Below, piece after piece: positions 1,616-23,555 of a stretch of 27,241 bases of DNA. Below the pieces are notes generated by a model. It saw only the letters and a list, made by a program, of their open reading frames with translations. It did no database searches and was not told the origin of the DNA. Made by a program: the position numbers and the translations under genes. The first letter of the stretch is position 1. Every line of letters begins with the position of its first letter. This stretch comes from a virus. The DNA is taken from positions 1-27,241 of IMG/VR virus record IMGVR_UViG_3300027733_000176. One strand, written 5' to 3'.

Positions 1616-2302
1616 TTATTTAATGTTAGATTTAATTTTTTGCACAAAATTAAGTAACTGCTCTCTAAGAAAGTCATCAGTGTCTTTTTTCGGTATTGAA
1701 GACAAATTACGATCTAATGTCTGATAAGCGCGAGCTGCACATTCAATAATACTACCATCTGATTTTACAACCCATTCACGACTCTCCATAACACTTTCAA
1801 GCATTGCTTTCTGTACAGAGGGTTCATGCACAACATCAAGACAGATCAAATGAAAATTATCTACTTCTTTACCTTTACTAGTTTCAGTAACATTACCAAG
1901 AGCGCGAGAACTTATACCCAACTGCACATTATCGGTAATTAAACTCTTTAAGAGGCTTCCCATTGGAGTACTCAATACAAGAGACTTACCCATTACATAG
2001 TTGTTAGTTATTTTAAGTTCAACAACGCGATGACACGAATTAACAGGGTTAACTTCTGTACTTTGAGGGTGGTTCATTTCACCAATAGAACGATTAGTTT
2101 TAATCATCTTTTCAGTGTATCTTTCAACCTCTTTACGCATTTCATCGAGCTTATATATACGACCATTCTGATTTTTTTCATCAGCCATCATAAAAGGCCC
2201 AGTTATATAGACTTTACGGTCTGTTGATGAGTCTCTGTTTTGCTCTTCAACGAGGTAGTCTAGACCTTCTGTTATATTCTCTACAAGAAATTTTAATCCC
2301 AT
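1616..2302 (-). CDS. 21: Prohead core protein protease (gp21)
   Basis: This 228-aa protein is the maturation protease that cleaves scaffold, core proteins and capsid N-termini inside the prohead, then itself. It belongs to the herpesvirus-assemblin-like serine protease fold. Visible family landmarks are the N-terminal YITGPFMMADEKNQNGRIY segment, the catalytic His in GEMNHP (about residue 78), the catalytic Ser in LGISSRALG (about residue 131), and the following LICLDVVHEPS strand (about 153-162), equivalent to the FDVVxDPS run in relatives. Length is close to T4 gp21 (212 aa). The C-terminal 40 residues are polar and likely autoprocessed. The ATG at 2302 has no SD but has TAAATAAATA upstream. 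It sits between gp4 nuclease and the small core gene. Confidence 0.95.
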   Translation of the reverse strand: MGLKFLVENITEGLDYLVEEQNRDSSTDRKVYITGPFMMADEKNQNGRIYKLDEMRKEVERYTEKMIKTNRSIGEMNHPQSTEVNPVNSCHRVVELKITNNYVMGKSLVLSTPMGSLLKSLITDNVQLGISSRALGNVTETSKGKEVDNFHLICLDVVHEPSVQKAMLESVMESREWVVKSDGSIIECAARAYQTLDRNLSSIPKKDTDDFLREQLLNFVQKIKSNIK

Positions 2303-2342: not shown

Positions 2343-2801
2343 TTAACTATTAGACATATTCTTTTCAGTTAATATTATAAACTTATACCCATGTTTTTGA
2401 GACCACTGTGAAGCTGCTTCCCATTTTGCTTTATTTTGAAGATATTCTCTTTGCAACATTACTGTGTTTTGAGGTTTACGCTTATTACTCGGCGGCGGGG
2501 GAGTTAACTTACTATAAGGTTTTATCTCAATGAGATACTTTACTATAGAACCCTTCTCATCGCGCATAGTAGCACTATTATCAACAAAATATCTATGCAC
2601 TCTACCGGTTAACGGGTTTTGATACGGCACAACTATACTCTCACTACTCCATGTTAATATTCTAGGATTTTTATCTAAAAATCTAAAATACTGTAACTCA
2701 AGACCACTACGATATATAATAGGTAATGTACCATTATACTTTTCAGGATTTAATGGCCTAAATACACCTTGCTTATAATGTCTACCTTTATTATTTTTCA
2801 T
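2343..2801 (-). CDS. 4: Head completion protein, gene 4-type nuclease fold
   Basis: This 152-aa protein matches the T4 gene 4 (also called 50/65) head-completion family. That family acts after DNA packaging to finish the head before tail joining and shares a TnsA/restriction-endonuclease-like fold. Typical landmarks are present in order: FRPLNPEKYNG near the N-terminus, IIYRSGLELQYFRFLDKNP (about 28-46, with Glu35), WSSESIVVPYQNPLTGRVHRY (about 51-71), Asp74, and LIEIKPYS (Glu92-x-Lys94), giving an E...D...ExK arrangement. The C-terminal part KWEAASQWSQKHGYKFIILT is also family-typical. It starts 2 nt after the stop of the gp13-like gene, so the two are probably co-transcribed. Length is normal. 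In T4 this gene lies with baseplate genes, so its place in the head cluster is a rearrangement. Confidence 0.9.
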   Translation of the reverse strand: MKNNKGRHYKQGVFRPLNPEKYNGTLPIIYRSGLELQYFRFLDKNPRILTWSSESIVVPYQNPLTGRVHRYFVDNSATMRDEKGSIVKYLIEIKPYSKLTPPPPSNKRKPQNTVMLQREYLQNKAKWEAASQWSQKHGYKFIILTEKNMSNS

Positions 2802-2803
2802 AA

Positions 2804-5350
2804 TTAACCTATAAAAAACATAGGTGGTGTATTGTCTCTATACTCTGTAATAAGCACTTTTTCAAGATTATCTTTTTCTGTTAGACCTTGTTGACGTAAG
2901 TCGTTACCATTAACAGACCCTCCACCAAACAATGCAGTTCCATTGTATTTACCTCTTACGTTACCAACAGCTATCATAGTTAATGCTTTTGAGTAGTCAT
3001 ACACCCAGCGCTCTTTGACGAGATCTTTAATAGGTCTTTCAATATAACAACCAACGAGACCTAAATAGCTTTCTTCTGTACGCGGTTCAGGTATGATGCG
3101 TAGGTTTTGTGTTCTATTATCAAAACGAAAGTGTGGTGTTTGTGCTAATACTTTATTGCGAGTATCTACAAACCCTTTAAGTGCTTCCCATGAAACGAGA
3201 TCAAAACCAAAATTACCAACCATATAAGAACTATAAATCTGCTGAGCCATTGCTTGTTCAAGTGTAAACAACGTATTGATACCAGTACTTTCACCTTGAT
3301 TAAAACTAAAACAATCTATTATTTTTCGACATGAAGCTAAGTCGTAATCGTAAAATAAACTAGCGCTTTCAGTACGAGTAAGTGTTGTAAGATTTGGATT
3401 AATATATACACTTGATAAAATAACAGTACCTATAGTACTGGCATTTGTATTTATAAACTGCAAACTTGTACCGCTTTGATACAGAGTACTACCAGTAATA
3501 TAATACGTTAAAGGTGCAATATTAACAAACGGGGTGTTCACAACATATGAAGACAGTGTTACTGTATTAATATTATTTTGTACAATAGTACCTGATAAAC
3601 TATATGTACGGTCTAAGTCAAAATATTCACCTGATTGAATAAGCTTGTTATTAAACAAGTAATAACTATCAGGTAATACACCACCGACAATACCATAACT
3701 TGGCCCAGGTACATCAGCTGTAAGAAAAAACTCAACATCAGTAAGTTGTGTACTTACCGCACAGTCTCCTGCCTCACTATAACCTAAGGGCAAGCTATAA
3801 ACAGAACTACAACTTTTAAATAAGCAGCTATCAGATATATAGTATGTGTTTAAATCAACATTAACTATTTCAATAGAGCGATCAATTACTTCTTCTTGAA
3901 ATGAAACCCCTAAAGGTATATTTGCTGCATATACCGCACCTGCTTCTGTATACGTTGCATCAATGCGAGCTCCACTGCGCCATACTGTAGTACCATTAAG
4001 GTATAAACTATTTGTTACGTTTGATTCAATTGCGTTTAATGTAACATTTACAGAAGTAAGAAAAGGTGTAGAGGTGTATATATTATCTTGTATAAGTTCA
4101 CCTATTAAACTATAACCTTCTGCAAGCTCAGTCGCGTCACCACTTCTATATAATTGTGTTTGACCTTCGATATACTCATTGAAATAAACAGTATCTGGAG
4201 GAACCGGTACAGCAGTTATTTCATTACTAAAAGAATCATAATAAAATTCCGGAAAAACTCTAAGAAGGTTATTATTTATCATCGTGCCTTTTAAACTTAC
4301 TTCTCCTAAATCTCCACCACTATACCATAATTGATTTTGATATATATAGTATGTATTAGAGGGTAGAGAAACTACATTAACATCTCTAACAGCTTGCACG
4401 GTTACAATATCAAATAAAGATAAATTTTGCAGTATTTGAATACCCGCAAACGCTTTACCACCTGGAGATTCATTTAAAGAGCTTTTCCATAAACTATTAC
4501 CATGTACATAGTAATGATCTGTAGGTACGTCTACAACGTTAGCTAGTTCAGTGGTCGTAAAGGTACTTAGCAACGGTGTTGTTATGATTGCCTGTATAAC
4601 TGTACCTTTTGAACTTGTGTCGTTTAATAAATAGCTAGTAGATGAACCGGATTTATACAGTGAACTCTCATGTGTATAGTATGTATAAGGTTCAAGATTT
4701 ACAACATCTACACTAGTTATATTAGTTGTGTAAGTCTCTGGTGTAATAGTGTCTATACTTTCCTGTATTAATTCACCGGTTAAACTTACTGTCTGATTTA
4801 TAGATGAACCTGATTGATAAAGATTACCAGATAGTAAATAGTAATTACCTGTTGTTACTGGAACTACAATCTGTGTAGTTATATAAACCTGTGCAGTTGC
4901 TTGTGTAACATTAGTAAGATATGTTGAACCTATATAGCTTTGAGTAGATTGTATATAACTATCTGTACTTATAGCATTATACACTGTACTGCTAGATGTA
5001 ATATAATAGTAACTATTAACAGGTACTTGTACAATATTTACATTTGTAGTTTTTGCGGAAGATATTGTATATAAACACGTGCTATTTATTAGTTTCTCAA
5101 TGTTTACACCAATTTGAGGTACATATGTCTTAGTATCAAATACCAAGAACTCTTCTGTATACCCTGCATACTTAGTAAAGTACTCTATTGACTCATTAAT
5201 AAAATCTATAAGCTGTTCATCTGTAACTTCTACCTCTACAAGAGGGTAACCAAACATATGTTTTATACGCTTTATCAACCCTTCATACGTCGTGATTGAA
5301 GGGTTTAATTGCGTTGAGCCGGTAAAAGTACTAGGCACTAAATTAGACAT
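2804..5350 (-). CDS. 13: gp13-like neck protein with a ten-repeat insertion
   Basis: This 848-aa protein has an N-terminal segment (about 1-80: ITTYEGLIKRIKHMFGYP, then VEVTDEQLIDFINESIEYF) and a C-terminal segment (about 660-848: PHFRFDNRTQNLRIIPEP, then VYDYSKALTMIAVGNVRGKY and GGGSVNGNDL) that look like the two ends of T4-type gp13 neck proteins. Those seal the packaged head and contact gp14 and the tail. Between them lie about 545 residues made of ten degenerate copies of a 53-61-residue unit with the signature YY(I/V)xxxxLYxSG. Removing them leaves about 303 aa, close to T4 gp13 (309 aa). The repeats are rich in Ser, Thr, Tyr and Val with almost no Lys, as expected of exposed beta structure. 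It follows the portal gene by about 40 nt. The gp13 assignment is from memory of the family; the repeat count is read directly. Confidence 0.75.
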   Translation of the reverse strand: MSNLVPSTFTGSTQLNPSITTYEGLIKRIKHMFGYPLVEVEVTDEQLIDFINESIEYFTKYAGYTEEFLVFDTKTYVPQIGVNIEKLINSTCLYTISSAKTTNVNIVQVPVNSYYYITSSSTVYNAISTDSYIQSTQSYIGSTYLTNVTQATAQVYITTQIVVPVTTGNYYLLSGNLYQSGSSINQTVSLTGELIQESIDTITPETYTTNITSVDVVNLEPYTYYTHESSLYKSGSSTSYLLNDTSSKGTVIQAIITTPLLSTFTTTELANVVDVPTDHYYVHGNSLWKSSLNESPGGKAFAGIQILQNLSLFDIVTVQAVRDVNVVSLPSNTYYIYQNQLWYSGGDLGEVSLKGTMINNNLLRVFPEFYYDSFSNEITAVPVPPDTVYFNEYIEGQTQLYRSGDATELAEGYSLIGELIQDNIYTSTPFLTSVNVTLNAIESNVTNSLYLNGTTVWRSGARIDATYTEAGAVYAANIPLGVSFQEEVIDRSIEIVNVDLNTYYISDSCLFKSCSSVYSLPLGYSEAGDCAVSTQLTDVEFFLTADVPGPSYGIVGGVLPDSYYLFNNKLIQSGEYFDLDRTYSLSGTIVQNNINTVTLSSYVVNTPFVNIAPLTYYITGSTLYQSGTSLQFINTNASTIGTVILSSVYINPNLTTLTRTESASLFYDYDLASCRKIIDCFSFNQGESTGINTLFTLEQAMAQQIYSSYMVGNFGFDLVSWEALKGFVDTRNKVLAQTPHFRFDNRTQNLRIIPEPRTEESYLGLVGCYIERPIKDLVKERWVYDYSKALTMIAVGNVRGKYNGTALFGGGSVNGNDLRQQGLTEKDNLEKVLITEYRDNTPPMFFIG
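3401..5038 (-). repeat. Ten degenerate ~55-aa tandem repeats in the gp13-like gene
   Basis: Conserved tyrosines fall at about residues 115, 170, 224, 280, 334, 389, 450, 503, 563 and 616, a spacing of 53-61. Examples of the core are NYYLLSGNLYQSGSS, TYYTHESSLYKSGSS, HYYVHGNSLWKSS, TYYIYQNQLWYSGG, TYYISDSCLFKSCSS, SYYLFNNKLIQSGE and TYYITGSTLYQSGTS. Each is preceded by a V-x-V-x-x-(L/V)-P-x strand and followed by a (L/I)-x-G-x-(L/V)-I-Q strand. DNA identity between copies is low, so the expansion is old or under diversifying selection. Confidence 0.85.
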
Positions 5351-5391: not shown

Positions 5392-7260
5392 TTAAGTTGC
5401 AGGCTCAGGGCTAGCTGGTGTCGCTGCAGGGGTAGGGCCACCACCTGCACCAGGCATTGGCTCAGGACCAGCTCCACCAAAGTCAGGAGGCACTGACTCA
5501 GGGCCAGCTGCAGGCATCTCACCTCCTCCAGACTCACCACCGCCTCCTCCTCCACCGCCACTCATAGATCCTGCATCTACACCCTCAGGGGCAGCACCTT
5601 GTTGTGCCGCAAGCTCCCTAAACTGCGGACCAGCTTGTTTAATTTGATTAATCTCCCACTCTAGAGCTGAATCTTTTCTCAACCAATCACGATTTTCTCT
5701 CATCTGATCCTCAGCCATGTCAAGATAATACTTCATAGCATAAGAAGGGCTTATGCTAGGGCTTTGTATAGCTGATTGGAATGTATCAAACTTCATCTTA
5801 ACTAACTGCTGCTCACGCATAGCCATAAAAGAAGTTGGAATATTAAATTCAACTTTAATAGAGCTTTCACGTAATTTGTTCTTCTTCCACATGTCTTTCA
5901 ACTTGAGATGTACAATAAAAGTGTTACGTACACCTATAGCAAACTGTCTTTGTAAACGAATTACAAATCTAGCAAACCTCAATTCATCTCTTGTAATTTC
6001 TGCACCATCTTTAAAAACGTTATCAGCAGACATAAACCTACTAGCTGGTAGTTTTAATGTCTTATAAAGCTTTATTAAGAAGTAGTCTAAGTCTTTTATT
6101 TCGCCTAAATTTCCACCAGAAGGCAAAGTCTCTACATTGTGTCCGTTACCTTGTGCATCCTTAGCAAAGAAATAACTATCCAACATAGACTGAGGGTCGT
6201 ATACATTAGTTACGCGACCACCTTGAGCAGGGTCAAAGTTTTTCTTTGACCAATATTGCTGCATGATTCTCTTAACGTAATTTTCAGCTTTTGGAGGTGA
6301 CATACCGCCAGTAAAAATAGAAAACTTCAACCTTTCAGGAGCTCTAACTAAACGATATATAACAATACTATCTTCAATAAGTGACAAGATACGATACGCT
6401 CTCTTACAGTTTTCTATGTAAGGTAAGCGCAATGATTTAACTTCGTTCCAAATACCACTATGAATGTATGTTACTTGAGAAGTTTGTAAAAATAATAATT
6501 GTTCTTCTTCTTTTTTATTGGTGTTGACAGTGGGATCTATAACCGGCTTCCTCAAAAGATAACCCTTTACAAGTTCGTTTTGCACATTCTGATACACAGG
6601 GTTTATTAGTTCAGAAGGCAAATCTACTAAACCAATAACACCAAGATCAGGGCGTTTTTGATCAATTATGTTTTCAAAAAATAGCTCTCCATCAATTAAG
6701 AATCGTCTAAAATATTCCCAACCGTTATCTTCAAAATCAAATATTTGTATAAAGTTTTTAAATTCTTTTTGTAGTAGATCTTTTACTTCTTTAGAATAAT
6801 CTCCACGCAAGGCAAATGTAGCAACTTCATCATTAGAATCTTTAACTACACATTCATCACAAATTTCATCTAAACAATCTGCAATCTCAGCATATGCTGC
6901 CATTCTTCTATAATCCATCAAGCGGCGTCCCTTATCCTTATCAATACTAGCATACACAAATGCCTGATAATCTTTATTGATCAGTACATTGTTCGGTGAA
7001 CCATAATCTGCATATGATTCCGGATTTTGTAAGAATACAGATTGATCTTGAATGTATTCTTGTCTTCTTGAAGAAACATCTTTAAAGTCATCAAACTTAG
7101 GGTTGCGTTGTATGATACTATCAATAATTTGATAAGCATATGGCAAGCGCGATAAAAAAGCTCCTAATATATTTGTACTCGGGAACGCTTGTGGAGCGTT
7201 GGAGTTGCCACCCTGGTTACCAGGTACAGCATTATTATTAGTATACGGCCTATATATCAT
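5392..7260 (-). CDS. 20: Portal vertex protein gp20
   Basis: This 622-aa protein forms the dodecameric portal through which DNA enters the head and on which prohead assembly starts. T4 gp20 landmarks are clear: VYRLVRAPERLKFSIF-type core (about 300-315, here IYRLVRAPERLKFSI), the KAENYVKRIMQQYWSKKNFD helix (about 325-343), YDPQSMLDSYFF (about 354-365), and VETLPSGGNLGEIKDLDYF (about 376-394) followed by LYKTLKLPASRF. T4 gp20 is 524 aa; the excess here is an N-terminal Asn/Gly/Pro-rich stretch and a C-terminal tail of about 70 residues of Gly, Pro, Ala, Glu and Ser with an eight-glycine run. The tail is much more GC-rich than its surroundings. An AATAAATAAA element precedes the ATG. It diverges from the plus-strand fibre-like gene. 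Confidence 0.95.
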   Translation of the reverse strand: MIYRPYTNNNAVPGNQGGNSNAPQAFPSTNILGAFLSRLPYAYQIIDSIIQRNPKFDDFKDVSSRRQEYIQDQSVFLQNPESYADYGSPNNVLINKDYQAFVYASIDKDKGRRLMDYRRMAAYAEIADCLDEICDECVVKDSNDEVATFALRGDYSKEVKDLLQKEFKNFIQIFDFEDNGWEYFRRFLIDGELFFENIIDQKRPDLGVIGLVDLPSELINPVYQNVQNELVKGYLLRKPVIDPTVNTNKKEEEQLLFLQTSQVTYIHSGIWNEVKSLRLPYIENCKRAYRILSLIEDSIVIYRLVRAPERLKFSIFTGGMSPPKAENYVKRIMQQYWSKKNFDPAQGGRVTNVYDPQSMLDSYFFAKDAQGNGHNVETLPSGGNLGEIKDLDYFLIKLYKTLKLPASRFMSADNVFKDGAEITRDELRFARFVIRLQRQFAIGVRNTFIVHLKLKDMWKKNKLRESSIKVEFNIPTSFMAMREQQLVKMKFDTFQSAIQSPSISPSYAMKYYLDMAEDQMRENRDWLRKDSALEWEINQIKQAGPQFRELAAQQGAAPEGVDAGSMSGGGGGGGGESGGGEMPAAGPESVPPDFGGAGPEPMPGAGGGPTPAATPASPEPAT

Positions 7261-10555: not shown

Positions 10556-10834
10556 ATGAGCGATAAACCTTTAATTTTTCAAGTTAGCAAAGAACAAGTA
10601 GGTAAACAAGATATTAATGAATTTTTACGAACTGCATTAGCACGAGAATTTAACGGTAAAGAATACATGATCGTGCATGAAACAACTCTAGACTCTCCTA
10701 CACCTTACAGTAGAGAATTTAGGAGACTCAAAGGTTTTAATATAGAGAGTGCAGGTAGAACACACACAATTTATTTTGATATAACAGATGCTCAGAATAT
10801 CAATAAAGACAAGAATAGCTGGAAATTCTTTTAA
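10556..10834 (+). CDS. Unknown 92-aa protein
   Basis: I do not recognise it. It is a compact alpha/beta protein: a helix (QDINEFLRTALAREFNGKEY) with a preceding strand (LIFQVSKEQV), then strands and turns (YMIVHETTLDSPTPYSREFR) and a closing strand (RTHTIYFDITDA). There is no membrane segment or cysteine. The gene is preceded by an A/T-rich divergent gap (10492-10555) with TATAAT directly before the ATG and no SD. It converges on the gp14-like gene and shares the TTAA stop tetranucleotide at 10831-10834. A regulatory role is conceivable but is not supported by any motif. Confidence 0.65.
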   Translation: MSDKPLIFQVSKEQVGKQDINEFLRTALAREFNGKEYMIVHETTLDSPTPYSREFRRLKGFNIESAGRTHTIYFDITDAQNINKDKNSWKFF

Positions 10835-11514
10835 TAATTCCCGTACGGGTTGTCGTTGTTAGACTTTGTATAGTCAAATAGTTTATCCCCTGTAAAAACA
10901 TCAATGCTATTGGGAGACACAGCTGTAAGAGCGTTGTTAAACGTAGCGTCTAACTTACCATAAGCACCTCCATCGCTTGCTTGTGTGTTTGATTTCTCAG
11001 GATCAACACCAGTCTCACTACTGTATTCAAATCTACGACATTTAATATACCATACATAATGACCTGCAAGTGGGTTGGTCATCTGTAGATACTCATCATC
11101 TCTTTCAGTTATTTCATAAATAGGTGCGCCTCTTCCGTTTGGTCTATCACCAAATCCACCATACTCAGATAATTCAATTAGATCTCCACTCTTGGGCTCT
11201 GTACCTACACCAAACGTCTCAGCGTAAGCACTAATATGTATTACAGCAGTCATATCACAATCTGCTTGAACACCAAATTTACTCAATATGATACTATCAT
11301 TAGTAATATTTGAAGCGATAATCAGCTTACCTTTTAACTCAAAACCAGCAGTTGGAGACTCACCATATAAATAATCTACACTCTGTTTTGTAGTTTTATT
11401 TGTGTAATACGTAACTTCCGTACCATAGTGCTCAATCTGCTCACGCCACCACTTACTATAGTTTTCGCGTTCATTATGATTTAAGGTCTTATTAAGATAC
11501 CTTACCTTGTTCAT
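10831..11514 (-). CDS. 14: gp14-like neck protein
   Basis: This 227-aa protein resembles T4-type gp14, the neck protein that together with gp13 completes the head and forms the tail-docking surface. Family features in order are EQIEHYGTEVTYYTN with a short loop to DYLYGESPTAGFE (about 26-60), the NDSIILSKFGVQADCDMTAV strand pair (about 71-91), PKSGDLIELSEYGG...PIYEITERDDEY (about 107-142), and GHYVWYIKCRRFEYSSETGV (about 152-171). The end is Asn/Asp-rich and probably flexible. Length is near T4 gp14 (256 aa). Its ATG overlaps the upstream stop as ATGA (11511-11514), so translation is probably coupled to the nucleotidyltransferase-like gene. It is separated from the gp13-like gene by 5.5 kb containing unrelated genes. 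Confidence 0.8.
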   Translation of the reverse strand: MNKVRYLNKTLNHNERENYSKWWREQIEHYGTEVTYYTNKTTKQSVDYLYGESPTAGFELKGKLIIASNITNDSIILSKFGVQADCDMTAVIHISAYAETFGVGTEPKSGDLIELSEYGGFGDRPNGRGAPIYEITERDDEYLQMTNPLAGHYVWYIKCRRFEYSSETGVDPEKSNTQASDGGAYGKLDATFNNALTAVSPNSIDVFTGDKLFDYTKSNNDNPYGNY

Positions 11515-12993: not shown

Positions 12994-15171
12994 TTAGAAA
13001 CCAACCTTCATAATATAAGCTAACTGATAGTATGGAGGTAGAGAATTGCTAATAGTGTGATTATGAGCTCCATCTGATTTAATAGAATGGGTATGTCCTT
13101 TATAATTTATATTTTGTGGATCTTGAGCATCTGTTAAAAACTTAACAGATTGATCATTATTAATAGAAGTAATATCAACAAACCCATCATGGTAATGTGC
13201 ACCATTAGTAGATGTAGTGAGACTTGAACTACCACCTGTAGTGCCAATAGTTGTTGCGTTTGTTGCCCCCATTATAAATCTCTCTCTCAAATTAGGTGTC
13301 TGCACCCCGTTATGCACACCACCATCACACAAAGCAAACGTTTGCGGTATGTCAACACCACTCCACATTATTATTGCACCTAACGGCAAACCGTACGTAT
13401 CAACATAGCGCTTAGTTGCAGCTTGGTTGTCTACAAGAGGTATACCTGACAACATAACAGCACCAGTACTTACAATATTTTTTGTTGCAGTTACACTGCC
13501 TGTTATTGTGCTGTTACCACTTAATGGTAATTTTGTTGTAATATTAAGAGCATCAATAGCCCCTTGCATAGCACTTAGATTGACTACATGTGCAGAAGAA
13601 ACTGGTGTAGTATTTAAACTTAAAATTCCATTTACACTACCACCACTAGTGAAAATAGATTCGCTACGTAATGTATAAGGTGTAAAGTCTATTAATCCAA
13701 TCGAGCTACTAATAGCATTTTCTACAAAATCTTTTGTTGTAACGTGCTTTGCTGATATTGGTGTAGCTAATACAGATATATTACCTTGTGCTGTGATTTG
13801 TATAGAGCTGGTAGTGTTAGTAAATCCATCAACACTACCTTCAAAAGTCATTAACTCTATTCCGTTCCCGTACACAGAAACACTGCCATCTTTTTTACTG
13901 AAAATACCTGTATTTGCGTCTGTTTGAAAAGATAAACCTACTAACGAATTGTCTCCTTGTGTAGGTGCTCCTGCTGTAACCTTAACAGATCTAAACTTAG
14001 ATTCACCGTCTGCAAATAAAGCGCCGTCTTTTGTGACTGTAAACTTAGTATCCGTCCCATTATTAACAATAAGAGCACTACCAACCCCTGTCTGTACAAT
14101 TTTAACAGCTTCTGTTGGTCGAGATACTTGTATAATAGTTGATCCTTTTATATCAAGTACGTGAGTAAATTCACTATTAGCACTACCTAAATTAAAATAT
14201 GAAGTTTGTAATCTAGGTGCCTTCAACGGCCCTGTCAACTCACCCCCAGATAGTGGTAAATACTTAGTAAAATCACTACCAACAACATCAACTGCAGTTC
14301 TTACAAACTCAGTAGTAGCTACTCTCGTACTCCTATCACTCTGGTCAGGGGTTTTTGTTTCAATAGATTCAGTGACTTGAGCTACTCCATCTACTTGAAA
14401 CTTATAGTTTGAACTCAATGTGGTACCAATAGTAACAGATCCATTTGGATGTACACACAAGCGTTCACTATTACCAGCCCATACACCAATACGCTGACCT
14501 ATATTTAATTGTTGTATTCGATTGTTAACACCGTCAATACTTAAACTACCTACACGAATCTCATTCTTTGTTAAAACTATACCGCGAGTAGAGTCTAATA
14601 TGATAGTAGCTGTACTCATTTCACTAGGGTCCCGTAAAGCTATACTACCTACGCGAAGTACAGAACTGTAGGAAGTGTAGCTTGCATCTCCAGTGCCTTG
14701 ACCATTCTGAATGAAGAAACTTGAACCTAATCTTGCTGGTAAAAAAGTGTCCCCTAAAAGTTTCGTTTTACCAGCAACTTTTAGCTTATATTCGGGGTCA
14801 GCCTCACCACCGATACTCAACCCTCTATTCACACCCTCCACGATAGTGAGAGGGCCTGTTAGAGCACCACCTGATAAATTTAAAAATCTCGTTAACGAAT
14901 CAGGGTTAACTTTAAGTTGATTGTTTACAATCTCAATCGAATACCCATCAACATCTACACGTACAAGCTCACTATCACCGAGTACATTCAAAAGACCTGC
15001 ACCTACTCGCATTGCGCCCGACGTTGAGCTAGTTGCTATCCGCGGCTTATTAAACAAATCTACTAATGCGCCTGATAGAGTGGTAAAGTTATTATTAATA
15101 TCTACACGAGAATTACCAACACAATCAGTTGGTTGTATCAAGGTTATTTTTGGTGAAGGAGAGTTGTTCAT
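12994..15171 (-). CDS. Tail fibre with C-terminal Phage Tail Collar domain
   Basis: This 725-aa fibre protein probably contacts the host surface. The N-terminus (ITLIQPTDCVGNSRVDINNN, then FTTLSGALVDLFN) resembles fibre-base segments that join to the baseplate. The shaft holds repeats of the LSGGALTGPL type (about 98, 309 and 553), YKLKVAGKTKLLGD and YKFQVDGVAQVTES chaperone-like pairs, and ATTEFVRTA, TTKDFVENA and ATKRYVDTYG motifs typical of phage fibres. Residues 595-725 are a collar-type tip: LPLGAIIMWSGVDIPQTFAL, CDGG, TPNLRERFIMGA, then three His-x-His sites (AHYHDG, GHTHS, AHNHT) and a PPYYQLAYIMKV ending, as in T4 gp12 and gp37, where His-x-His pairs bind metal in the trimer. It ends the large tail cluster; the next gene lies 8 bases upstream. 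Confidence 0.85.
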   Translation of the reverse strand: MNNSPSPKITLIQPTDCVGNSRVDINNNFTTLSGALVDLFNKPRIATSSTSGAMRVGAGLLNVLGDSELVRVDVDGYSIEIVNNQLKVNPDSLTRFLNLSGGALTGPLTIVEGVNRGLSIGGEADPEYKLKVAGKTKLLGDTFLPARLGSSFFIQNGQGTGDASYTSYSSVLRVGSIALRDPSEMSTATIILDSTRGIVLTKNEIRVGSLSIDGVNNRIQQLNIGQRIGVWAGNSERLCVHPNGSVTIGTTLSSNYKFQVDGVAQVTESIETKTPDQSDRSTRVATTEFVRTAVDVVGSDFTKYLPLSGGELTGPLKAPRLQTSYFNLGSANSEFTHVLDIKGSTIIQVSRPTEAVKIVQTGVGSALIVNNGTDTKFTVTKDGALFADGESKFRSVKVTAGAPTQGDNSLVGLSFQTDANTGIFSKKDGSVSVYGNGIELMTFEGSVDGFTNTTSSIQITAQGNISVLATPISAKHVTTKDFVENAISSSIGLIDFTPYTLRSESIFTSGGSVNGILSLNTTPVSSAHVVNLSAMQGAIDALNITTKLPLSGNSTITGSVTATKNIVSTGAVMLSGIPLVDNQAATKRYVDTYGLPLGAIIMWSGVDIPQTFALCDGGVHNGVQTPNLRERFIMGATNATTIGTTGGSSSLTTSTNGAHYHDGFVDITSINNDQSVKFLTDAQDPQNINYKGHTHSIKSDGAHNHTISNSLPPYYQLAYIMKVGF

Positions 15172-15179
15172 ACTACTTA

Positions 15180-17231
15180 TTAACAGGATGTATCAAAGTA
15201 TTTATACAAAGATGTAAGATTAGACCATAAATATTTTAAACATCTATTAACTACAGCGCTTGTTACTATTTCGTTTTGACCAACAAAAATATCACTCTTT
15301 TGATAAGGTGCATCACCATATACATCGCACCCTACATTACTGTACATTAAACTACTTCTAAACAATTCAATGTTTTCGTACATACGTTGAAAAGCTCTAG
15401 TAAACACCCAGTCTTGCATATATTCCTCTGCATCTATAATAACCTCATCTATAGACCACATATCAACTAGTAATTTTGATGAATCAGTATTCATGTAAGA
15501 TTTACTATTAATATTCATAAGGTCAACATATTTTACAATATAATCATTTGTAACTAAATACAGATTTCTATTTTCATCATGAAACATACTCTTAATATGC
15601 TTTAAGCAGTTTGGTGTACTAATATCTAACGTAGTAAAATTAATACCTGTACGAAAATGTTTAGTTACTTCACTAGAGGAAGATATATATAGTACTTCTT
15701 TATTGTAGTTACTACGTATTCTAACAGGTGTACCTGTTAAGCTATGCGTGTATGTGTCTATTATTTGTTCATTTATTAAGTTTAAAGTCTGTACTGTATT
15801 ACTATATAATAAATGAACAAGATTCTGACTATCAACAGCAATTGATATAGGGGCTGTAGTAAGACTAATAGTTTTTAACCATTCACCACGATACGTATAA
15901 AGCTTTATACAACTGTTACCACTATCATTAACTATAACATTGGAATATATATCAACACATATATCTGTAGGGTTGTTAAACTTATATTTATTTGCACGTG
16001 AACCTATACCGTAGATACTAAAAGTTCTACCCCATTTAAGTAAATTATTTTTCTTAAAGATATAACAAGCTACGCCGTTATTTTCACGATCACATACAAA
16101 CACCCTATTACCTACACCTGATGCAAGAGCTACAACATTTGAAAAAGGTACATCTTTATCTATACCTGTTATTATAGGCATAAACGGAGTAGTGAGTAGA
16201 TTTGTAGAACATGCTCTTACAGTAGTATTAGTAGATGTAAACATAACACCATCACTAACAACAATATCTGTTAATACACAATTGTCATTAAAAGGTATAC
16301 ACGATATTGTACTACCTACAGTTTCTGCAAACCCCCCTAGACCTGGTACATCTACCACATGCCACCTCGCCCCTAAAAAACAATCACCACTAGTCAACAC
16401 CTGTGAATCTGATAATAGATCTAGTATATTGTCTTGTATAGGGTTTACTTGTGCAGTATTAACATTCGTAAAAGTAGAGCATAAGAGATTCTCCCAATGT
16501 GTATCATGAAATTTACTAGTGTAATTATCATTTTGTATGTCTAGCCATGTCTTTTGCTCTGCTGCGTCTGTCTCTAAAAACGCCCATCGCCAATTATAAT
16601 TACTAGTGGCAGATTGATCTGCCAACCCACAGCTTGCTGCATGCCATGAACTACACGTACGAAAAGGGGAAAGTGGTTCAGAGGATAATACCTGACTCCA
16701 AGCAACATCTTTATATAGTGCCTGAGACCACGTCCAATTACCTGAACCACACTCTAATAAACTTTCCTGACCAGCAACACCATACCAGCCAATATACTCA
16801 ATACTCGACTCATCGTAATATCTAGTCTTTGATATTAAGTAGTCTAGATTTTTCTGTATATCTTTTAAGCATTTATTAATATTTGTATTACCTGCCCATG
16901 TATTTGGATATATGAAAGGGACACTTGTAACAGGTGGTGTGAACAAAACGCTCTCCTCACTATATATGTCTACATTAATATTGTCGTATTTGTTTACAAC
17001 TTTAATTATGTTTGGGTAGTTATAAATTTTCGGGAGACTAGTTATTGTGGAAGGTATGTATGCAGATACACTAAAACTCTTTGTACCTACATTCTTATAC
17101 GAAACATCAAAATATTGCGGTATCTCATGTTTTTTATAGTCAAAAATATTACCATCATCAAGATCCACTCTTAAACGAGTCAATCTCTCAGGCATAGTTA
17201 TTAAATTGTCTACTCGTATTTTAAAGGTCAT
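15180..17231 (-). CDS. Large tail/baseplate protein with NHL-like propeller and Trp-rich module
   Basis: I do not recognise this 683-aa protein as a known family. Residues 1-100 are beta-rich (MTFKIRVDNLITMPERLTRL). Residues 110-140 form a short helical segment (NINKCLKDIQKNLDYLI). About 163-250 is tryptophan-rich (NWTWSQALYKDVAWSQVL; NYNWRWAFLE; KTWLDIQ; HWENLLC). About 320-600 reads like NHL/beta-propeller blades (NNPTDICVDIYSNVIVNDSG, then CIKLYTYRGEWLKTI and APISIAVDSQNLVHLL). The C-terminus (SAVVNRCLKYLWSNLTSLYK) repeats the earlier helical segment. Its ATG overlaps the upstream stop as ATGA (17228-17231), so the two genes are coupled. Location in a tail cluster next to a fibre suggests a baseplate or adhesion role; that is inference. 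Confidence 0.6.
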   Translation of the reverse strand: MTFKIRVDNLITMPERLTRLRVDLDDGNIFDYKKHEIPQYFDVSYKNVGTKSFSVSAYIPSTITSLPKIYNYPNIIKVVNKYDNINVDIYSEESVLFTPPVTSVPFIYPNTWAGNTNINKCLKDIQKNLDYLISKTRYYDESSIEYIGWYGVAGQESLLECGSGNWTWSQALYKDVAWSQVLSSEPLSPFRTCSSWHAASCGLADQSATSNYNWRWAFLETDAAEQKTWLDIQNDNYTSKFHDTHWENLLCSTFTNVNTAQVNPIQDNILDLLSDSQVLTSGDCFLGARWHVVDVPGLGGFAETVGSTISCIPFNDNCVLTDIVVSDGVMFTSTNTTVRACSTNLLTTPFMPIITGIDKDVPFSNVVALASGVGNRVFVCDRENNGVACYIFKKNNLLKWGRTFSIYGIGSRANKYKFNNPTDICVDIYSNVIVNDSGNSCIKLYTYRGEWLKTISLTTAPISIAVDSQNLVHLLYSNTVQTLNLINEQIIDTYTHSLTGTPVRIRSNYNKEVLYISSSSEVTKHFRTGINFTTLDISTPNCLKHIKSMFHDENRNLYLVTNDYIVKYVDLMNINSKSYMNTDSSKLLVDMWSIDEVIIDAEEYMQDWVFTRAFQRMYENIELFRSSLMYSNVGCDVYGDAPYQKSDIFVGQNEIVTSAVVNRCLKYLWSNLTSLYKYFDTSC

Positions 17232-18712
17232 GATGTTTGCAATACATATTTATTATTAGGGTAAAGAACTACACTCGGTGTAGTATATATATGCCCTGTT
17301 AAACTTGATGTCGTAGAGCTACTAACAGTATTCCAGTCAAAAGTGATACCATTAACGCTTGGTAGCAATGGTATTACAGAGTCGTACCATGCTGTCACCT
17401 CAACTGTAAACATACTATCTTTTTTATTATCAAAATGGTAAGGTACATCTAATTGCCCGTCTACAACAACAGGCAGTGGTAAATAGCTTATATAATTAAA
17501 ATTATTATCTATAATATTACTCTTCCAGTACTGTGAAGTAATAGACCATTGCACTTTCGTTACAGTGTGCTGCACTGGTGAACGTATTATATTTGTAATA
17601 CTTGTAGCAGGTTGCTTTCTCCATTTCTTTTTAAAGTTTCCACCTGAAGAGACATCACTCCATGTATATGGTAGATCTGAAGCAGAATCACCTCGATAAA
17701 AGGTTGACCACTTCCACACCTCACCATACAGCCCCAAACATTCATCTAACTCAACACCATGAAGAGCTGCTTTTAGACTTACATCAAATATTGCTTCTTC
17801 TCTATCAGCCATCAAAATAGGTGAAGGTATATTGTGTTCTATTTTAATCTTGAGTGGTTCGTAACACTTAACATGTATATTTTCTCTATATCGGTTAGGC
17901 TGTAAGTCACTAGAAGTACTATAATAAAAACTATACTGTTTTTTCTCACCTGTTATATCATCAAAATAATAATTTGGTGCTTGTAGATTTAATAGTGTGT
18001 TTGGTATAGTGACTTTTAATTCGACTGGTATATATAATTCTTTACCTTTCTCACTCTTAATTCTCGCAGATGCACGAACACCCGCAGGTGTATTAAATCT
18101 TGTACCGGTCAGTGTAACAACATCATTAACTGTTTGACCTGTTAATACTGTAGCATTATGAATTGGTTCACTTGTAAGTGTCAACATCCATGTGTAGTCA
18201 TAGTTATTTGTATCACTGCTCAAAGCAGAAAATGTTATATTCTCTGTATGACCTTCCCCGTAAAAGCTTACACCGCGCGATCTTTCATAGTTTGTATAAT
18301 CAAGAGTTATTACTGATACACCTGTCTCAAAATAATTAGAAGGCCAACTGATATAATCTGCAACGGGTAACGTATCTAGAAAAACAACAGACATTGTCTT
18401 TGCAAAAGTGTAATATTGTGACCACCCTGCATTCTTACCTGAGCAAAATACTGTAATTGTACTTACACAAGGAGATGTACAAACAAGAGGTATACTTACT
18501 GAATTATATGAATTAAAGAGATTTTCTAATTGATATTTAGTTGAATCTGTGTTCAAACAATACCAGTACGTAGCATCTTCAAGAGTAGACATAGCTCTTA
18601 AAGTTGTAGTATACTCAGCTGACACAATATTTCTAAAAAAACACGTCGAGTTTATAGTGTTTTCATAGTTTAGATAAAAATCTAAAATAAAAGTATCCGG
18701 TGTTGTTAGCAT
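17228..18712 (-). CDS. Beta-rich virion protein with Trp-rich module
   Basis: I do not recognise this 494-aa protein. It is almost entirely beta-rich, with segments that look like Ig-like or PKD-type repeats (for example GRGVSFYGEG-like turns near 147-153 and VLTGTRFNTPAGVRA-like strands near 200-214). At 331-368 it carries EVWKWSTFYR, DLPYTWSDVSSGGNF and KKKWRKQ, closely matching a segment of the 475-aa protein five genes away in this cluster. Trp/Cys content is high for a phage structural protein. It lies 17 bases after the 810-aa gene and overlaps the 683-aa gene by ATGA, so it belongs to one operon. An AAATAATAGAG stretch precedes the ATG, without a convincing SD. Its role is inferred as tail or baseplate. 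Confidence 0.55.
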   Translation of the reverse strand: MLTTPDTFILDFYLNYENTINSTCFFRNIVSAEYTTTLRAMSTLEDATYWYCLNTDSTKYQLENLFNSYNSVSIPLVCTSPCVSTITVFCSGKNAGWSQYYTFAKTMSVVFLDTLPVADYISWPSNYFETGVSVITLDYTNYERSRGVSFYGEGHTENITFSALSSDTNNYDYTWMLTLTSEPIHNATVLTGQTVNDVVTLTGTRFNTPAGVRASARIKSEKGKELYIPVELKVTIPNTLLNLQAPNYYFDDITGEKKQYSFYYSTSSDLQPNRYRENIHVKCYEPLKIKIEHNIPSPILMADREEAIFDVSLKAALHGVELDECLGLYGEVWKWSTFYRGDSASDLPYTWSDVSSGGNFKKKWRKQPATSITNIIRSPVQHTVTKVQWSITSQYWKSNIIDNNFNYISYLPLPVVVDGQLDVPYHFDNKKDSMFTVEVTAWYDSVIPLLPSVNGITFDWNTVSSSTTSSLTGHIYTTPSVVLYPNNKYVLQTS

Positions 18713-18729
18713 CTCTATTATTTAATATA

Positions 18730-21162
18730 CTAATCCCACTCTATTTTTAGTAGTTCAGAATGTGCAGGAGCTACTTTAGCTAAAGACTGTTTTATATAGT
18801 TTTCAACCAATTCTTTTACTTTTACACTATTACTATCAGTTAATTTAGATGTATCAAAGCCTGTTATATGTAATTTATAAAATTGACTTTTTGACCCTGT
18901 TAGTTGATTCTTAAACACTCTTTCAATTGTATCAATAAATTGTATTTTAGATGTAAATACATCCCATACCATATCTTTACATTTAAGGTAAGCGCGTTGA
19001 AATATTGGTAAATACTTCTGAGGTACAACATAGTTATAAAAACGCAAATCATCAAAACAACCATTATAAATTATGTCCTTCACGTCAAGTTCAGCGTTTA
19101 AATTACTATATTTACCATTTGGTGTGCCAACATAAAGAGAATTACATTTATCAAAAGTAAGAAAATATCTTGGAGGTATTTTAATTGAATCTCTCTCAAT
19201 ACCATCTAGATATAACAATGCTTTATTTTTATCAAACGTCACACATACATGATGCCATTGATCTATCTTTAGTAATTCAGAATCTAATCTTAAAGAATAT
19301 GTTTTAAAATTTTCTTTAACTACATCTAACATCGATATATCAAAAGCTAAACTTTTTTTATTATTAAATTTAACAGTGTTAAACACTCTACTCCAATTAT
19401 ACCCACTAAAATCTGCAGTTGTTATTACTTTTATATCTTCTCTTAAAACTTTATCTCCAACTCTATACGGTAAATATAAACTCTTTTGTAAACCACCTTG
19501 GAGATTTATAAAATATACTCTCTTATCAAAACTCGACAACACAGCGGCGTACCATAGGTTTTCACTTGTACTACGCTTGTGTCTATAAATGAATGAAATA
19601 TTTTGTTGTATAAAGTTATTGTTTAATACACCCGTAATATCTCCCAGCTCGACTGTGAAAATTAAACCGCTGTTATCTTTTGAAAGCTTACTAACTTTAT
19701 TAACTTCGTGTACTGCCCATATATACCCTTCAGGGTCTACGTTAAAATTAGTAACACTTGATAATGTATTTATTTTAATGTGATTTTTATATAAGAAAAA
19801 ATCTTTAGATAGATGGTAAAAATCATCACCTATAAACAAACTATTAATATATAAATCAAAAATATGAATATCATTTTTAAAATTAAACACTAAAGATGTT
19901 AATTGACTGCAAATTCTAGGCTTTAATTTAATACTATCTTTATCAAGATCATTGCTTACTGTAATGATATATTTATTAGTTGTAATAATATAATTGTTAT
20001 CTTTATCTACAAAAAGTCTATAACACTCAAGATCACCTTCTTCTGTAAACTTAACAGTGTTTCTCTTGCTGTTCCCTAAGTGATCTACCTTTATTAGAGT
20101 GTGATTCTTATCGTCAAGTATAACTAACATTCTTTCCCCATCTACTGCATAATCTTTAATATTAGTTCCTAAAGAAGTCTGTAAATTTGGAGAAGTATAA
20201 TTGTGAGCTTTGTTATTGAAGCAAAATAAATTGCTATGAGTGCTTTCAGCAATAAAAAAATACGGTGTATATATAAGATTTTCAAAACGCAAGCTGTAAC
20301 CACCATCAAACATATTACCAACAATTTGAGAAGTGTTTATATTTTGCCAATCATCTGATTTAATCCAACACATCATTGTAAAAGATTGTGTGTTGTAGAT
20401 ATCACTGTGTATTATTTTAAATTCAGCGTAAGCTTGATTTGCAAAATCAAGATACTGACGATCCACTTCATTTACGCGAGTCTGTGTGCCCATCATTAAA
20501 TTACCGTCACCTATAACTTGTAACTTATTGTTAAAGCCGCTAGTGTCTATACTAGCATCATCCCAGCTGGTATAATGTAATCGTAATGCAGACAAGGTGT
20601 CATTACCTGACAATGTGTCTATATGTAATGATGCAGACTCTTCACCGACATGAAAATACTCATAAAGGTTGCCACTTTCAAGCATTCTTTCAGAAACAAT
20701 ATCAACAAATCCGTCACCACCTTGAGATATGTACACACTAGAATTATACTGACCTATTACATTACTTTCTGCTGAAAGAGTGCCAGGGTTAAAATAGCGA
20801 TCCATCCAAACAGGCTCTTCACCGCTCACACTTTTAAGCCATGAATAAAACAATTCACCATCTTGCATATAACTTGTACTTCCCCACGGTGTATGTGTAG
20901 AGTAACCTTTTTGATAACTGATAAGTCTATCCGCCATAGCAGGTATAGGGCCTGCAATAGCACCAGCTTCTATTAAACCGCTCGTTGTTATACTCACCTG
21001 TTCTGCAAAGTATGGAAAATGAAACGTTGTACTCGTGTCTTTTTTAAGAACAACCTCTCGAGTATTAGCCTGATACCCAAGTTGTATTTTATCGTGACCA
21101 CCATTCTGTTCTGAACCGGTGAACAATTTATAATACTGTCTTTGTGATGGTATTGTACTCAT
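18730..21162 (-). CDS. LamG-like virion protein with propeller-like insertion
   Basis: This 810-aa protein starts beta-rich and has a motif EPVWMDRYFNPGTLSAES (about 116-133). Residues 231-305 look like the first half of a LamG/concanavalin-like domain (YLDFANQAYAEFKI, SFTMMCWIKSDDWQ, FDGGYSLRFENL), and 620-712 the second half (YSLRLDSELLKIDQWHHVCV, TFDKNKALLYLDGIERDS, NGCFDDLRFYNYVV). Between them are about 310 residues with blade-like repeats (DYAVDGERMLVILDDKNHTL, CYRLFVDKDNNYIITTN, NFNVDPEGYIWAVHEVNKVS). The C-terminus (ELVENYIKQSLAKVAPAHSE, LLKIEWD) resembles endings of other phage baseplate-associated proteins. LamG domains usually bind carbohydrate or protein. Its place in the tail cluster suggests an adhesion role; exact family unknown. 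Confidence 0.65.
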   Translation of the reverse strand: MSTIPSQRQYYKLFTGSEQNGGHDKIQLGYQANTREVVLKKDTSTTFHFPYFAEQVSITTSGLIEAGAIAGPIPAMADRLISYQKGYSTHTPWGSTSYMQDGELFYSWLKSVSGEEPVWMDRYFNPGTLSAESNVIGQYNSSVYISQGGDGFVDIVSERMLESGNLYEYFHVGEESASLHIDTLSGNDTLSALRLHYTSWDDASIDTSGFNNKLQVIGDGNLMMGTQTRVNEVDRQYLDFANQAYAEFKIIHSDIYNTQSFTMMCWIKSDDWQNINTSQIVGNMFDGGYSLRFENLIYTPYFFIAESTHSNLFCFNNKAHNYTSPNLQTSLGTNIKDYAVDGERMLVILDDKNHTLIKVDHLGNSKRNTVKFTEEGDLECYRLFVDKDNNYIITTNKYIITVSNDLDKDSIKLKPRICSQLTSLVFNFKNDIHIFDLYINSLFIGDDFYHLSKDFFLYKNHIKINTLSSVTNFNVDPEGYIWAVHEVNKVSKLSKDNSGLIFTVELGDITGVLNNNFIQQNISFIYRHKRSTSENLWYAAVLSSFDKRVYFINLQGGLQKSLYLPYRVGDKVLREDIKVITTADFSGYNWSRVFNTVKFNNKKSLAFDISMLDVVKENFKTYSLRLDSELLKIDQWHHVCVTFDKNKALLYLDGIERDSIKIPPRYFLTFDKCNSLYVGTPNGKYSNLNAELDVKDIIYNGCFDDLRFYNYVVPQKYLPIFQRAYLKCKDMVWDVFTSKIQFIDTIERVFKNQLTGSKSQFYKLHITGFDTSKLTDSNSVKVKELVENYIKQSLAKVAPAHSELLKIEWD

Positions 21163-21167
21163 ATGTA

Positions 21168-22130
21168 TTATATATACAAAATACCATTGGTGGTATTTAA
21201 TATTGCTCGCGCACTTATATTCTCTGTAACTGTAGTTTCTGTTTCATTATAGAAATTACTAACCACAACACCACCACCTTGAGGTGTGAAGTTAGTCTTT
21301 AAGTTTAATATGTTTAATTCAGTTGTATTGTTTACTATAGCATCTTCAATATTAAAAGAACATAGTACGTTACACGGGGCATTAAATTCTTTGTTGATCT
21401 CAACATCACTATTATGATTTCTTTGACTGATATCCATAAAATATGTAACCCACTTGTTGTCTTGTATAGTGGTCGATATTTCTTCTTTTGAATACGATTT
21501 ATATGTGAATAGATATGGCTGTGGTACAGTTGTACCTAATACAACACCACAAGCTTGTAATATATTATCTTTATTAATACTTAAAAATCTAAAACTATTA
21601 TCTAATTTAATTTTAATAGTTACTACATTATCATATATACGCTCAATAAAAAAATTATAAAAATTACTTTCAATAATAGATAAATCATCACGTTCAACTA
21701 AAGACACAATATATGGATAATATGTATCAACCACAACAAATTTATTATCATAAATAATATTAACACACCCTTCAAGAGTTTCTGACTTTACAACAACAAG
21801 CAAGTCAGTCTCTTGAGATGCATAAAACCTATTCTTAATGTATTTTAGACCGCTTGAAACAGCGTCATTTATATGTAAAGTTATTAAAGTAGGTATAACC
21901 CCTAGTTCTTTAGTGGGTTCTTCAGCTACGATATCTGAGATGTTTATATTGTCCGATAGCACAAGCACACTACCGTTGTTAAGAGAAACATCTTTATAAT
22001 TTTTAAAGATACTATTCTTAGTAATAGCTAAGCCGTTGTTGTAAAAAATGCTCTCAACATTCAAGCTTATGTCACTCTTGATATACTCAAGAGCTATTGG
22101 TTTAAGTTGATCAAAATTTTGTGTTCTCAT
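21168..22130 (-). CDS. Unknown 320-aa beta-rich virion protein
   Basis: I do not recognise it. It opens with a short helix (FDQLKPIALEYIKSDISLNV) and is otherwise rich in Val, Ile, Asn and Tyr strands (SVLVLSDNINISDIVAEE; LLVVVKSETLEGCVNIIYDN; VTIKIKLDNSFRFLSINKD), with a Gly-rich turn TPQGGGVVVSN near the end. It has no transmembrane segment, no enzymatic motif and no Trp-rich module, unlike its neighbours. Its ATG overlaps the upstream stop by ATGA (22127-22130), and the 810-aa gene starts 5 bases after it ends, so it is embedded in the tail operon and likely a structural subunit or adaptor. There is no SD. Confidence 0.55.
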   Translation of the reverse strand: MRTQNFDQLKPIALEYIKSDISLNVESIFYNNGLAITKNSIFKNYKDVSLNNGSVLVLSDNINISDIVAEEPTKELGVIPTLITLHINDAVSSGLKYIKNRFYASQETDLLVVVKSETLEGCVNIIYDNKFVVVDTYYPYIVSLVERDDLSIIESNFYNFFIERIYDNVVTIKIKLDNSFRFLSINKDNILQACGVVLGTTVPQPYLFTYKSYSKEEISTTIQDNKWVTYFMDISQRNHNSDVEINKEFNAPCNVLCSFNIEDAIVNNTTELNILNLKTNFTPQGGGVVVSNFYNETETTVTENISARAILNTTNGILYI

Positions 22131-23554
22131 ACACGTATATTATCTTGTGTTTGTGTTAATAAAGAAGAATCGTAATCTGTAACTATAGATTCTCTTTGTT
22201 GATTTTTAATTAGATTATTCCCAATATAAGTATCAAAATCTTCACCATTAAAACCTACAGAGTTAATAAGTTTACCTTTGTAGTTTTTAATTATATTGGG
22301 TGGTGTATTACTTGACTGCACTTCACTGATATATTCACTATTTAAATCAAATGTATGAAACACTGCATGTTTGTCTATACTTGATGCATATAATATAATA
22401 TCGTTAATTGCGCGAGATTTTAATAAATTAAATGTTCCTTGTTGTAAAGTTACGGCACTAATACTATCTATAACTGTAGATGAATAATCTGATGAGTGAG
22501 TATTACAGCTAACTACTGTTAGTGAAGGGTATAGAGTACTTGTACCACTAACATTATATACATGTGTAACGTCAAAATTTCTTGGGTCTTGAAGGTCAGC
22601 AGAAAAAGAGTTATTGCATGTATATAAGTTTATGTTGTTAGGGTTGAATCTACTAACTGTCAATAAACTAGAACCGTCATTAAAGTCCCATATTATTTTC
22701 TCAATAGGAAAACTACCAGCAACACATCCCTCCGCACTAAAAATAGCTGTTAGCGGGCTTGTCTTGGATGTTAATGACCTATAAAAAATGTTTGCTGTAG
22801 GGGCAATCTCCTTTACATACACTATACAATCATGTCTTGTAACTTGAGTGTATAGTGTACTTAATATATATGAATATGTAGTCAGCTTGCAATCTTCATG
22901 ACCTTGAGGTGCCCATGTTTTTGCGTATGATGCACCATAGGAAGTTTCTGACCATCTTAATGGTGTATTTGATAAAGAATTTAAATAATCCCACGACCAC
23001 ACCTTACAATATGCATCTATACATTGTTCGGGAGATGTCCATGTCTTTACAAAAGCTTTAGGGTTTAACAGAGAATACTCCTTAGTATTCTCAAGCCAGG
23101 TGGTATCGTTTTCTTTACTGCTTGTCATATCACTCCACCCCCACATACGTTTATCTTCCCTACATACATCATACTTACCGTCACCTACACTATTCGGGAA
23201 CACCTTAAAAACTTCACGAGCAATATAACTAATTCTATATGAACCAGGCATAACAAACGTGTGTGTTATTTGATCAGCTTCACTAAGTGCAAAAGAACTT
23301 TTTGTTTGACCACTATTGTATGAATCATTAAAATCAATCTCTATAAAAGTATCTAACACTTGTGTTGTGCTTGCAGATTGAGTGTATGTTTGACCACCGA
23401 CTTGAAAGAGAACACACATATACGGTGCATAACCGGTTATATACGATGTGTCGATATTATTATATATCGTATTAGATATACAAGGTACGCCAGTGTCCCA
23501 GCTGTATTCTGGTGTAACTGTAGTGTGAGATTTTATTTGTAGTGAGAAAGACAT
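22127..23554 (-). CDS. PKD-like virion protein with tandem Trp-rich module
   Basis: This 475-aa protein has two PKD-like segments: one at about 30-115 (DTFIEIDFNDSYNSGQ, ITHTFVMPGSYRISYIARE) and one at about 250-350 (FPIEKIIWDFNDGSSLLTV, DVTHVYNVSGTSTLYPSLTV). PKD domains are Ig-like folds common in surface and carbohydrate-contacting proteins. Between them are two Trp-rich units: 137-172 (MWGWSDMTSS, TTWLEN, AFVKTWTSPEQ) and 184-217 (KVWSWDYLNS, LRWSETSYGASYAKTWAPQ). The second matches the 494-aa protein of this cluster. The C-terminal quarter is polar without a recognisable domain. It follows the 1223-aa gene by 1 base and overlaps the next by ATGA. An adhesion or tail-decoration role is inferred. 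Confidence 0.6.
   Translation of the reverse strand: MSFSLQIKSHTTVTPEYSWDTGVPCISNTIYNNIDTSYITGYAPYMCVLFQVGGQTYTQSASTTQVLDTFIEIDFNDSYNSGQTKSSFALSEADQITHTFVMPGSYRISYIAREVFKVFPNSVGDGKYDVCREDKRMWGWSDMTSSKENDTTWLENTKEYSLLNPKAFVKTWTSPEQCIDAYCKVWSWDYLNSLSNTPLRWSETSYGASYAKTWAPQGHEDCKLTTYSYILSTLYTQVTRHDCIVYVKEIAPTANIFYRSLTSKTSPLTAIFSAEGCVAGSFPIEKIIWDFNDGSSLLTVSRFNPNNINLYTCNNSFSADLQDPRNFDVTHVYNVSGTSTLYPSLTVVSCNTHSSDYSSTVIDSISAVTLQQGTFNLLKSRAINDIILYASSIDKHAVFHTFDLNSEYISEVQSSNTPPNIIKNYKGKLINSVGFNGEDFDTYIGNNLIKNQQRESIVTDYDSSLLTQTQDNIRV
22818..22859. repeat. Inverted repeat (11-bp arms, 20-nt loop) in coding sequence
   Basis: TACACTATACA and TGTATAGTGTA are perfect complements 20 bases apart, inside the PKD-like gene. 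The arms are A/T-rich, so chance occurrence is plausible in a 27-kb AT-rich window. Confidence 0.6.
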
Positions 23555-23555
23555 A

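Follow-up and report, generated by a model that had tools for sequence, protein, structure and literature searches.

The gene and its neighborhood

The window analyzed here, meaning the whole stretch of DNA, is a complete IMG/VR virus record of 27,241 bases, itself a fragment, from a freshwater phage related to T4. A T4-type head module lies on its minus strand and comprises a scaffold-like gene, gp21, a gp4-like gene, the gene of an 848-aa protein, and the portal gene gp20. The 848-aa open reading frame opens with ATG and is uninterrupted. The genes considered below, with the E values of their matches, are as follows.

1616..2302, minus strand: prohead protease (gp21; Peptidase_S77, 1.2e-26)
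2343..2801, minus strand: head-completion/closure protein (gp4-like, TnsA-like nuclease fold), directly downstream of the 848-aa gene (phrog_218, 2.2e-43)
2804..5350, minus strand: gp13/Ad2-type neck protein gene, 848 aa, with an internal repeat array (open reading frame; phrog_211, E 7e-21; T4 gp13 by clade profile, E 9.6e-16)
5392..7260, minus strand: portal protein (gp20), directly upstream of the 848-aa gene (Portal_T4 PF07230, 1.1e-95)
10831..11514, minus strand: gp14-like head closure protein Hc2, not adjacent to the 848-aa gene (phrog_679, 2e-12)

In T4, gp14 forms the partner ring of gp13. The order portal or gp14, gp13, gp4, gp21, scaffold is kept across relatives, and gp14 adjoins gp13 in many of them.

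Farther along the window, the block 12994-27227 holds large minus-strand genes that look like tail fiber or adhesion proteins. A 725-aa protein (12994-15171) has a tail collar fiber C terminus (phrog_1800, 6e-14), an 810-aa protein (18730-21162) carries a LamG/ConA-like lectin domain (PF13385, 6.4e-13), and 22127-23554 gives a weak PKD match.

Both ends of the protein are gp13

The whole 848-aa protein matched PHROG 211 (head-tail adaptor Ad2) at the E value listed above, and each of its two ends did so alone.

5054..5350, minus strand: N-terminal gp13 part, residues 1-99, with helices corresponding to T4 domain I and then the first swing-domain strand (phrog_211, 1.1e-5 alone)
2804..3385, minus strand: C-terminal gp13 part, residues 656-848, with the remaining swing domain, helices, and the C-terminal arm (phrog_211, 1.4e-13 alone)

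A profile built from 22 short relatives retrieved T4 gp13 from the PDB at 9.6e-16, the N and C segments being collinear, and the clade profile aligned over its full length with a profile of cultured gp13s at 1.6e-31 (hhalign). Residues 3-91 of the N part are about 50% identical to short relatives, and the C part is 60-79% identical to clade relatives. Without the insert, the flanks come to about 99 + 193 = 292 aa, compared with 285-289 aa in most relatives and 309 aa in T4 gp13, and this core length lies within the 240-315-aa range used for gp13/Ad2. A first-pass annotation, made from the letters of the DNA, had put the family-like parts at about 303 aa, which is close to the measured value, and had called the termini gp13-like, which these matches confirm. 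On this profile evidence, the 848-aa protein is a genuine T4-type gp13 (Ad2) head-tail adaptor, and its identity is secure.

Fiber-family identity of the whole protein was ruled out by the gp13 matches of both ends and by the head-gene neighborhood. Because both ends are gp13 and no whole-length fiber family without a neck segment emerged, the repeats lie within the neck gene rather than in a separate fiber gene, as the annotation had proposed. The 976 columns of phrog_211 do not reflect a known internal insert; the gp13 core occupies columns 717-976, and the surplus columns are N terminal. Some reference phage probably carries a gp13 whose N-terminal part runs to about 716 aa.

Ten diverged repeats fill the insert

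Between these ends lies an array of ten tandem repeats. In a leave-one-out analysis, in which an HMM of nine units was used to find the tenth, each of the ten was recovered, with E values from 1.7e-6 (repeat 1) to 1.1e-15 (repeat 6).

3386..5053, minus strand: insert, residues 100-655, ten tandem 53-60-aa repeats (leave-one-out profiles; missing in 55 of 68 distinct relatives)
4889..5053, minus strand: repeat 1, residues 100-154, degenerate core (leave-one-out E 1.7e-6)
4727..4888, minus strand: repeat 2, residues 155-208 (leave-one-out E 3.6e-14)
4559..4726, minus strand: repeat 3, residues 209-264 (leave-one-out E 4.8e-15)
4397..4558, minus strand: repeat 4, residues 265-318 (leave-one-out E 3.9e-10)
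4220..4396, minus strand: repeat 5, residues 319-377 (leave-one-out E 4.9e-14)
4052..4219, minus strand: repeat 6, residues 378-433 (leave-one-out E 1.1e-15)
3890..4051, minus strand: repeat 7, residues 434-487 (leave-one-out E 4.9e-10)
3710..3889, minus strand: repeat 8, residues 488-547 (leave-one-out E 2.3e-10)
3551..3709, minus strand: repeat 9, residues 548-600 (leave-one-out E 1.6e-12)
3386..3550, minus strand: repeat 10, residues 601-655 (leave-one-out E 5.7e-13)

LYxSG-like cores occur at residues 177, 231, 287, 341, 400, 456, 510, 570, and 623, with spacings of 53-60 residues, and the first, degenerate core lies near residue 122 (STVYNAIS). The leave-one-out HMMs and the regular cores bear out the earlier count of ten tandem repeats; their location was also right, but the measured span is slightly wider than the 3401-5038 originally given. 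The top ungapped 40-residue self-match scored 86, whereas 100 shuffles averaged 34 +/- 5.4 and never exceeded 56. At the DNA level, the array is in frame and has no recognizable tandem copies beyond short weak matches. Because the repeats are unseen in the DNA, the expansion must be old and its copies diverged. Residues S, T, V, L, Y, I, and N abound in the insert, and K, C, H, and W are scarce; the insert makes up about 65% of the length of this gp13, and the array nearly triples the protein.

Searches of the insert and its repeats against PHROGs, Pfam, and PDB sequences returned nothing at E 0.1 or better. No Ig-like, PKD, lectin, or other catalogued surface domain was found in the repeats with Pfam, PHROGs, PDB sequences, and fold libraries, and no further copies of the repeats were found elsewhere in the window or in the fetched loci.

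We modeled a repeat pair from in-register paralogues (mean pLDDT, 68; at least 70 in 65 of 110 residues). Each unit in the model has a hairpin at the YY../LYxS core and a third strand, and the repeat is thus predicted to be a small, beta-rich unit. Compared with the PDB and viral predicted structures, the pair had no match with E below 0.2; weak, scattered fold matches (among them chitin-binding CBM5/12-type proteins and filamentous-phage g3p) had E values of about 0.25 or more and were treated as noise. The fold may be new, the pair model being too modest for a claim of novelty. A full-length AlphaFold2 model, for which the input alignment was arranged so that both ends stay in register, was of low confidence (mean pLDDT, 35.8) and was used for local strand hints only.

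The insertion site in uncultivated relatives

From two IMG/VR scans we obtained 68 distinct relatives in which both ends are present. Default MAFFT columns were left unused because they misplaced the N part of the window protein against short relatives. The length at the insertion point was 1-3 residues in 55 of the 68, 9-12 in six, 18 in three, and 35-37 in two; L066 has 102 residues there and L001 has 562. Clade relatives (L069, L003, and others; 285-289 aa) resemble the window protein in their ends and neighbor genes, but most have the 1-3-residue loop.

The array was present on two other contigs, L001 (96% identity) and L002 (41% in repeats 6-10). The L002 sequence starts partway through the array, and its repeats 6-10 are in register. 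L001, L002, and the window form one clade with 100/99 support. The 102-aa insert of L066 is unrelated in sequence to the array, giving no repeat-profile match, and L066 and the 35-37-residue cases branch apart from the array clade. Further scans of viral contigs for the insert found only L001 and L002, and bacterial and archaeal genomes scanned with the gp13 C-terminal profile yielded no relative.

Extensions of another sort, in frame and N terminal and about 170-290 aa long, were seen in the gp13 relatives at L034:4113-5834, L060:4326-5861, L004:4482-5864, and L131:180-1598. Those of L004, L034, and L060 are Pro/Thr-rich (PT repeats), and that of L131 is of a different kind.

A smaller domain in cultured Synechococcus phages

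In the gp13 of Synechococcus phage S-CAM9 (373 aa), the first swing-domain strand is separated from the NYIEIPDHVIGV strand by about 128 extra residues, and the same 128-aa domain is found in gp13 of S-8S53, S-8S55, and S-8S56. This domain has relatives among the repeats of baseplate-wedge proteins in cyanophages (phrog_2885, 2.1e-13). The S-CAM9 protein (L143:1492-2613; NC_031922.1) is annotated only as a hypothetical protein or head-tail adaptor. When the clade profile was aligned with cyanophage gp13, YRRVLDCFAF paired with VIGVQGIFRF, the strand after the S-CAM9 domain loop. This pairing would therefore place the window insert in the corresponding loop, and the S-CAM9/S-8S53/55/56 domain and the window array probably occupy the same one. 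Both are extra beta-rich virion domains in the swing domain after the first strand, but the Synechococcus phages have a single 128-aa domain with no sequence relationship to the ten YY..LYxSG repeats. A T4-only alignment and de novo MAFFT alignments shift the insert by about one strand, and the T4-equivalent residue is uncertain accordingly; every version keeps the insert within the swing domain, clear of the helix bundle, the gp14-binding loop, the C-terminal arm, and domain III.

Judged by these alignments, the loop looks like a recurrent insertion point, of which the window array is the extreme case. Because relatives have 35-102 aa there, and the S-CAM9-type domain probably sits there too, the insertion is graded rather than unique. 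The annotation's remark that no gp13 with such an insert had been described holds for size and repeats, but not for the presence of an insert as such, given the smaller, unrelated Synechococcus domain at what is probably the same loop. Among the open-licence literature, we found no papers describing such gp13 inserts.

Selection on the insert

Between the window and L001, dN/dS was 0.13 for the insert, 0.02 for the C part, and 0.00 for the N part. Against L002, dN was 0.64 for the insert and 0.15 for the core, a protein-level divergence roughly four times as fast in the insert, with synonymous sites saturated. The insert is under purifying selection that is looser than that on the core. Within the repeats, the core residues (YY, L, S, and G) are kept while the spacers vary.

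Along the insert (3386-5053), dS between the window and L001 varies from 0.00-0.03 in repeats 3-4 to 0.69 in repeat 10. This unevenness suggests recombination within the array.

Comparison with T4 and a proposed role

T4 gp13 is a dodecamer in which the swing domain (residues 52-192) flips up to the portal and capsid, touching the portal stem/wing and the gp23 periphery domains, and domain III (residues 190-239) holds twelve fibritin trimers (PMC12270204). The N and C parts of T4 gp13 (PDB 9mkb, 9mof, 9x3o, and 9lu4-9lu7) are collinear with those of the window protein, and gp14-like and gp20 proteins are likewise encoded nearby. However, the 556 repeat residues of the window protein correspond in T4 gp13 to a loop of about 10 residues, and T4 gp13 has the fibritin-binding domain III, which the window clade lacks (a gap of about 40 residues relative to T4 residues 190-239 in the profile alignment). 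Cyanophage gp13 is likewise without domain III. If the array is exposed, it would add accessory mass to the neck as the whiskers of T4 fibritin (gpwac) do; fibritin, however, is a separate trimeric coiled coil on gp13 domain III, whereas the mass in the window phage consists of beta repeats within gp13. No fibritin match was found for the protein or insert in PHROGs or for the whole protein or repeat pairs in Pfam, and no fibritin-like gene was recognized among the searched genes of the 27-kb window.

A surface loop of the gp13 swing domain has thus grown by ten diverged copies of one small beta-rich repeat, by arithmetic estimate roughly 59 kDa of insert per subunit. We think it rather likely that the expanded loop serves as an exposed, host-contacting neck module in place of separate fibers. 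By homology, twelve gp13 copies would form a ring between the portal and gp14. A twelve-copy ring would carry twelve arrays, about 120 repeats, around the neck near the portal vertex, and a collar of twelve arrays is our best guess. The array would be an additional exposed module replacing separate neck fibers in a clade without the fibritin-holding domain. It probably contacts the host surface, most likely its glycans, with the conserved hairpin cores as the scaffold and the fast-changing loops as the contact surface.

The annotation had envisaged a large radial projection, possibly a whisker or receptor-contacting spike built of repeats and encoded in the neck gene. The repeats are indeed inside that gene, but the array starts and finishes at one loop, so that its ends must be close, which makes a straight spike doubtful. 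We favor a compact, folded-back, or closed array over a straight radial rod. Moreover, because the T4 swing domain packs on the portal and capsid, the array loop could face the capsid and not the solvent.

An array so placed might be purely structural: the repeats would wrap the portal vertex, bridge gp13 neighbors or the major capsid protein, and strengthen the head-neck junction with no host binding. The contacts of the T4 swing domain with the portal stem/wing and gp23 periphery domains (PMC12270204) are in keeping with this, as are the compact body favored by array ends that close on one loop and the resistance of the ten units to drift (dN/dS, 0.13). We nevertheless regard it as unlikely, since close relatives with the same neighbor genes manage with only a short loop, so that stability does not need the array, and since divergence about four times faster than that of the core is unusual for a buried interface. 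The missing domain III and the lack of a recognized fibritin-like gene among the window genes searched would also suit an array that stands in for fibritin (gpwac) and holds or senses the long tail fibers instead of binding cells. This reading seems quite unlikely to us: the window is only a 27-kb fragment, cyanophage gp13s also lack domain III yet have no such arrays, and the repeats show no sign of a coiled coil or foldon.

The occurrence of the array on only three contigs raises the question of a fusion or assembly artifact or a decaying insert without a role, which we consider very improbable. An assembly artifact is excluded because two other contigs carry the array, L001 with the same architecture and the diverged L002 in register over repeats 6-10. 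The monophyly of the carriers (100/99 support), the dN/dS of 0.13, and the absence of a stop across 556 codons also speak against this reading.

The neck is usually viewed as a conserved mechanical seal, with appendages that come from separate genes. The gp13 array and the independent smaller inserts of other phages, probably in the same loop, would turn the adaptor ring into a display platform. More tentatively, and we put this forward as a possibility that is on balance doubtful, the swing-domain loop may be a general docking point for unrelated surface modules in the T4 superfamily, holding here a new ten-repeat beta fold that would form a 12-fold adsorption collar, an adhesion organelle inside the adaptor ring. 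The gp13 loop would give a defined spot in which to seek extra functions at the head-tail junction.
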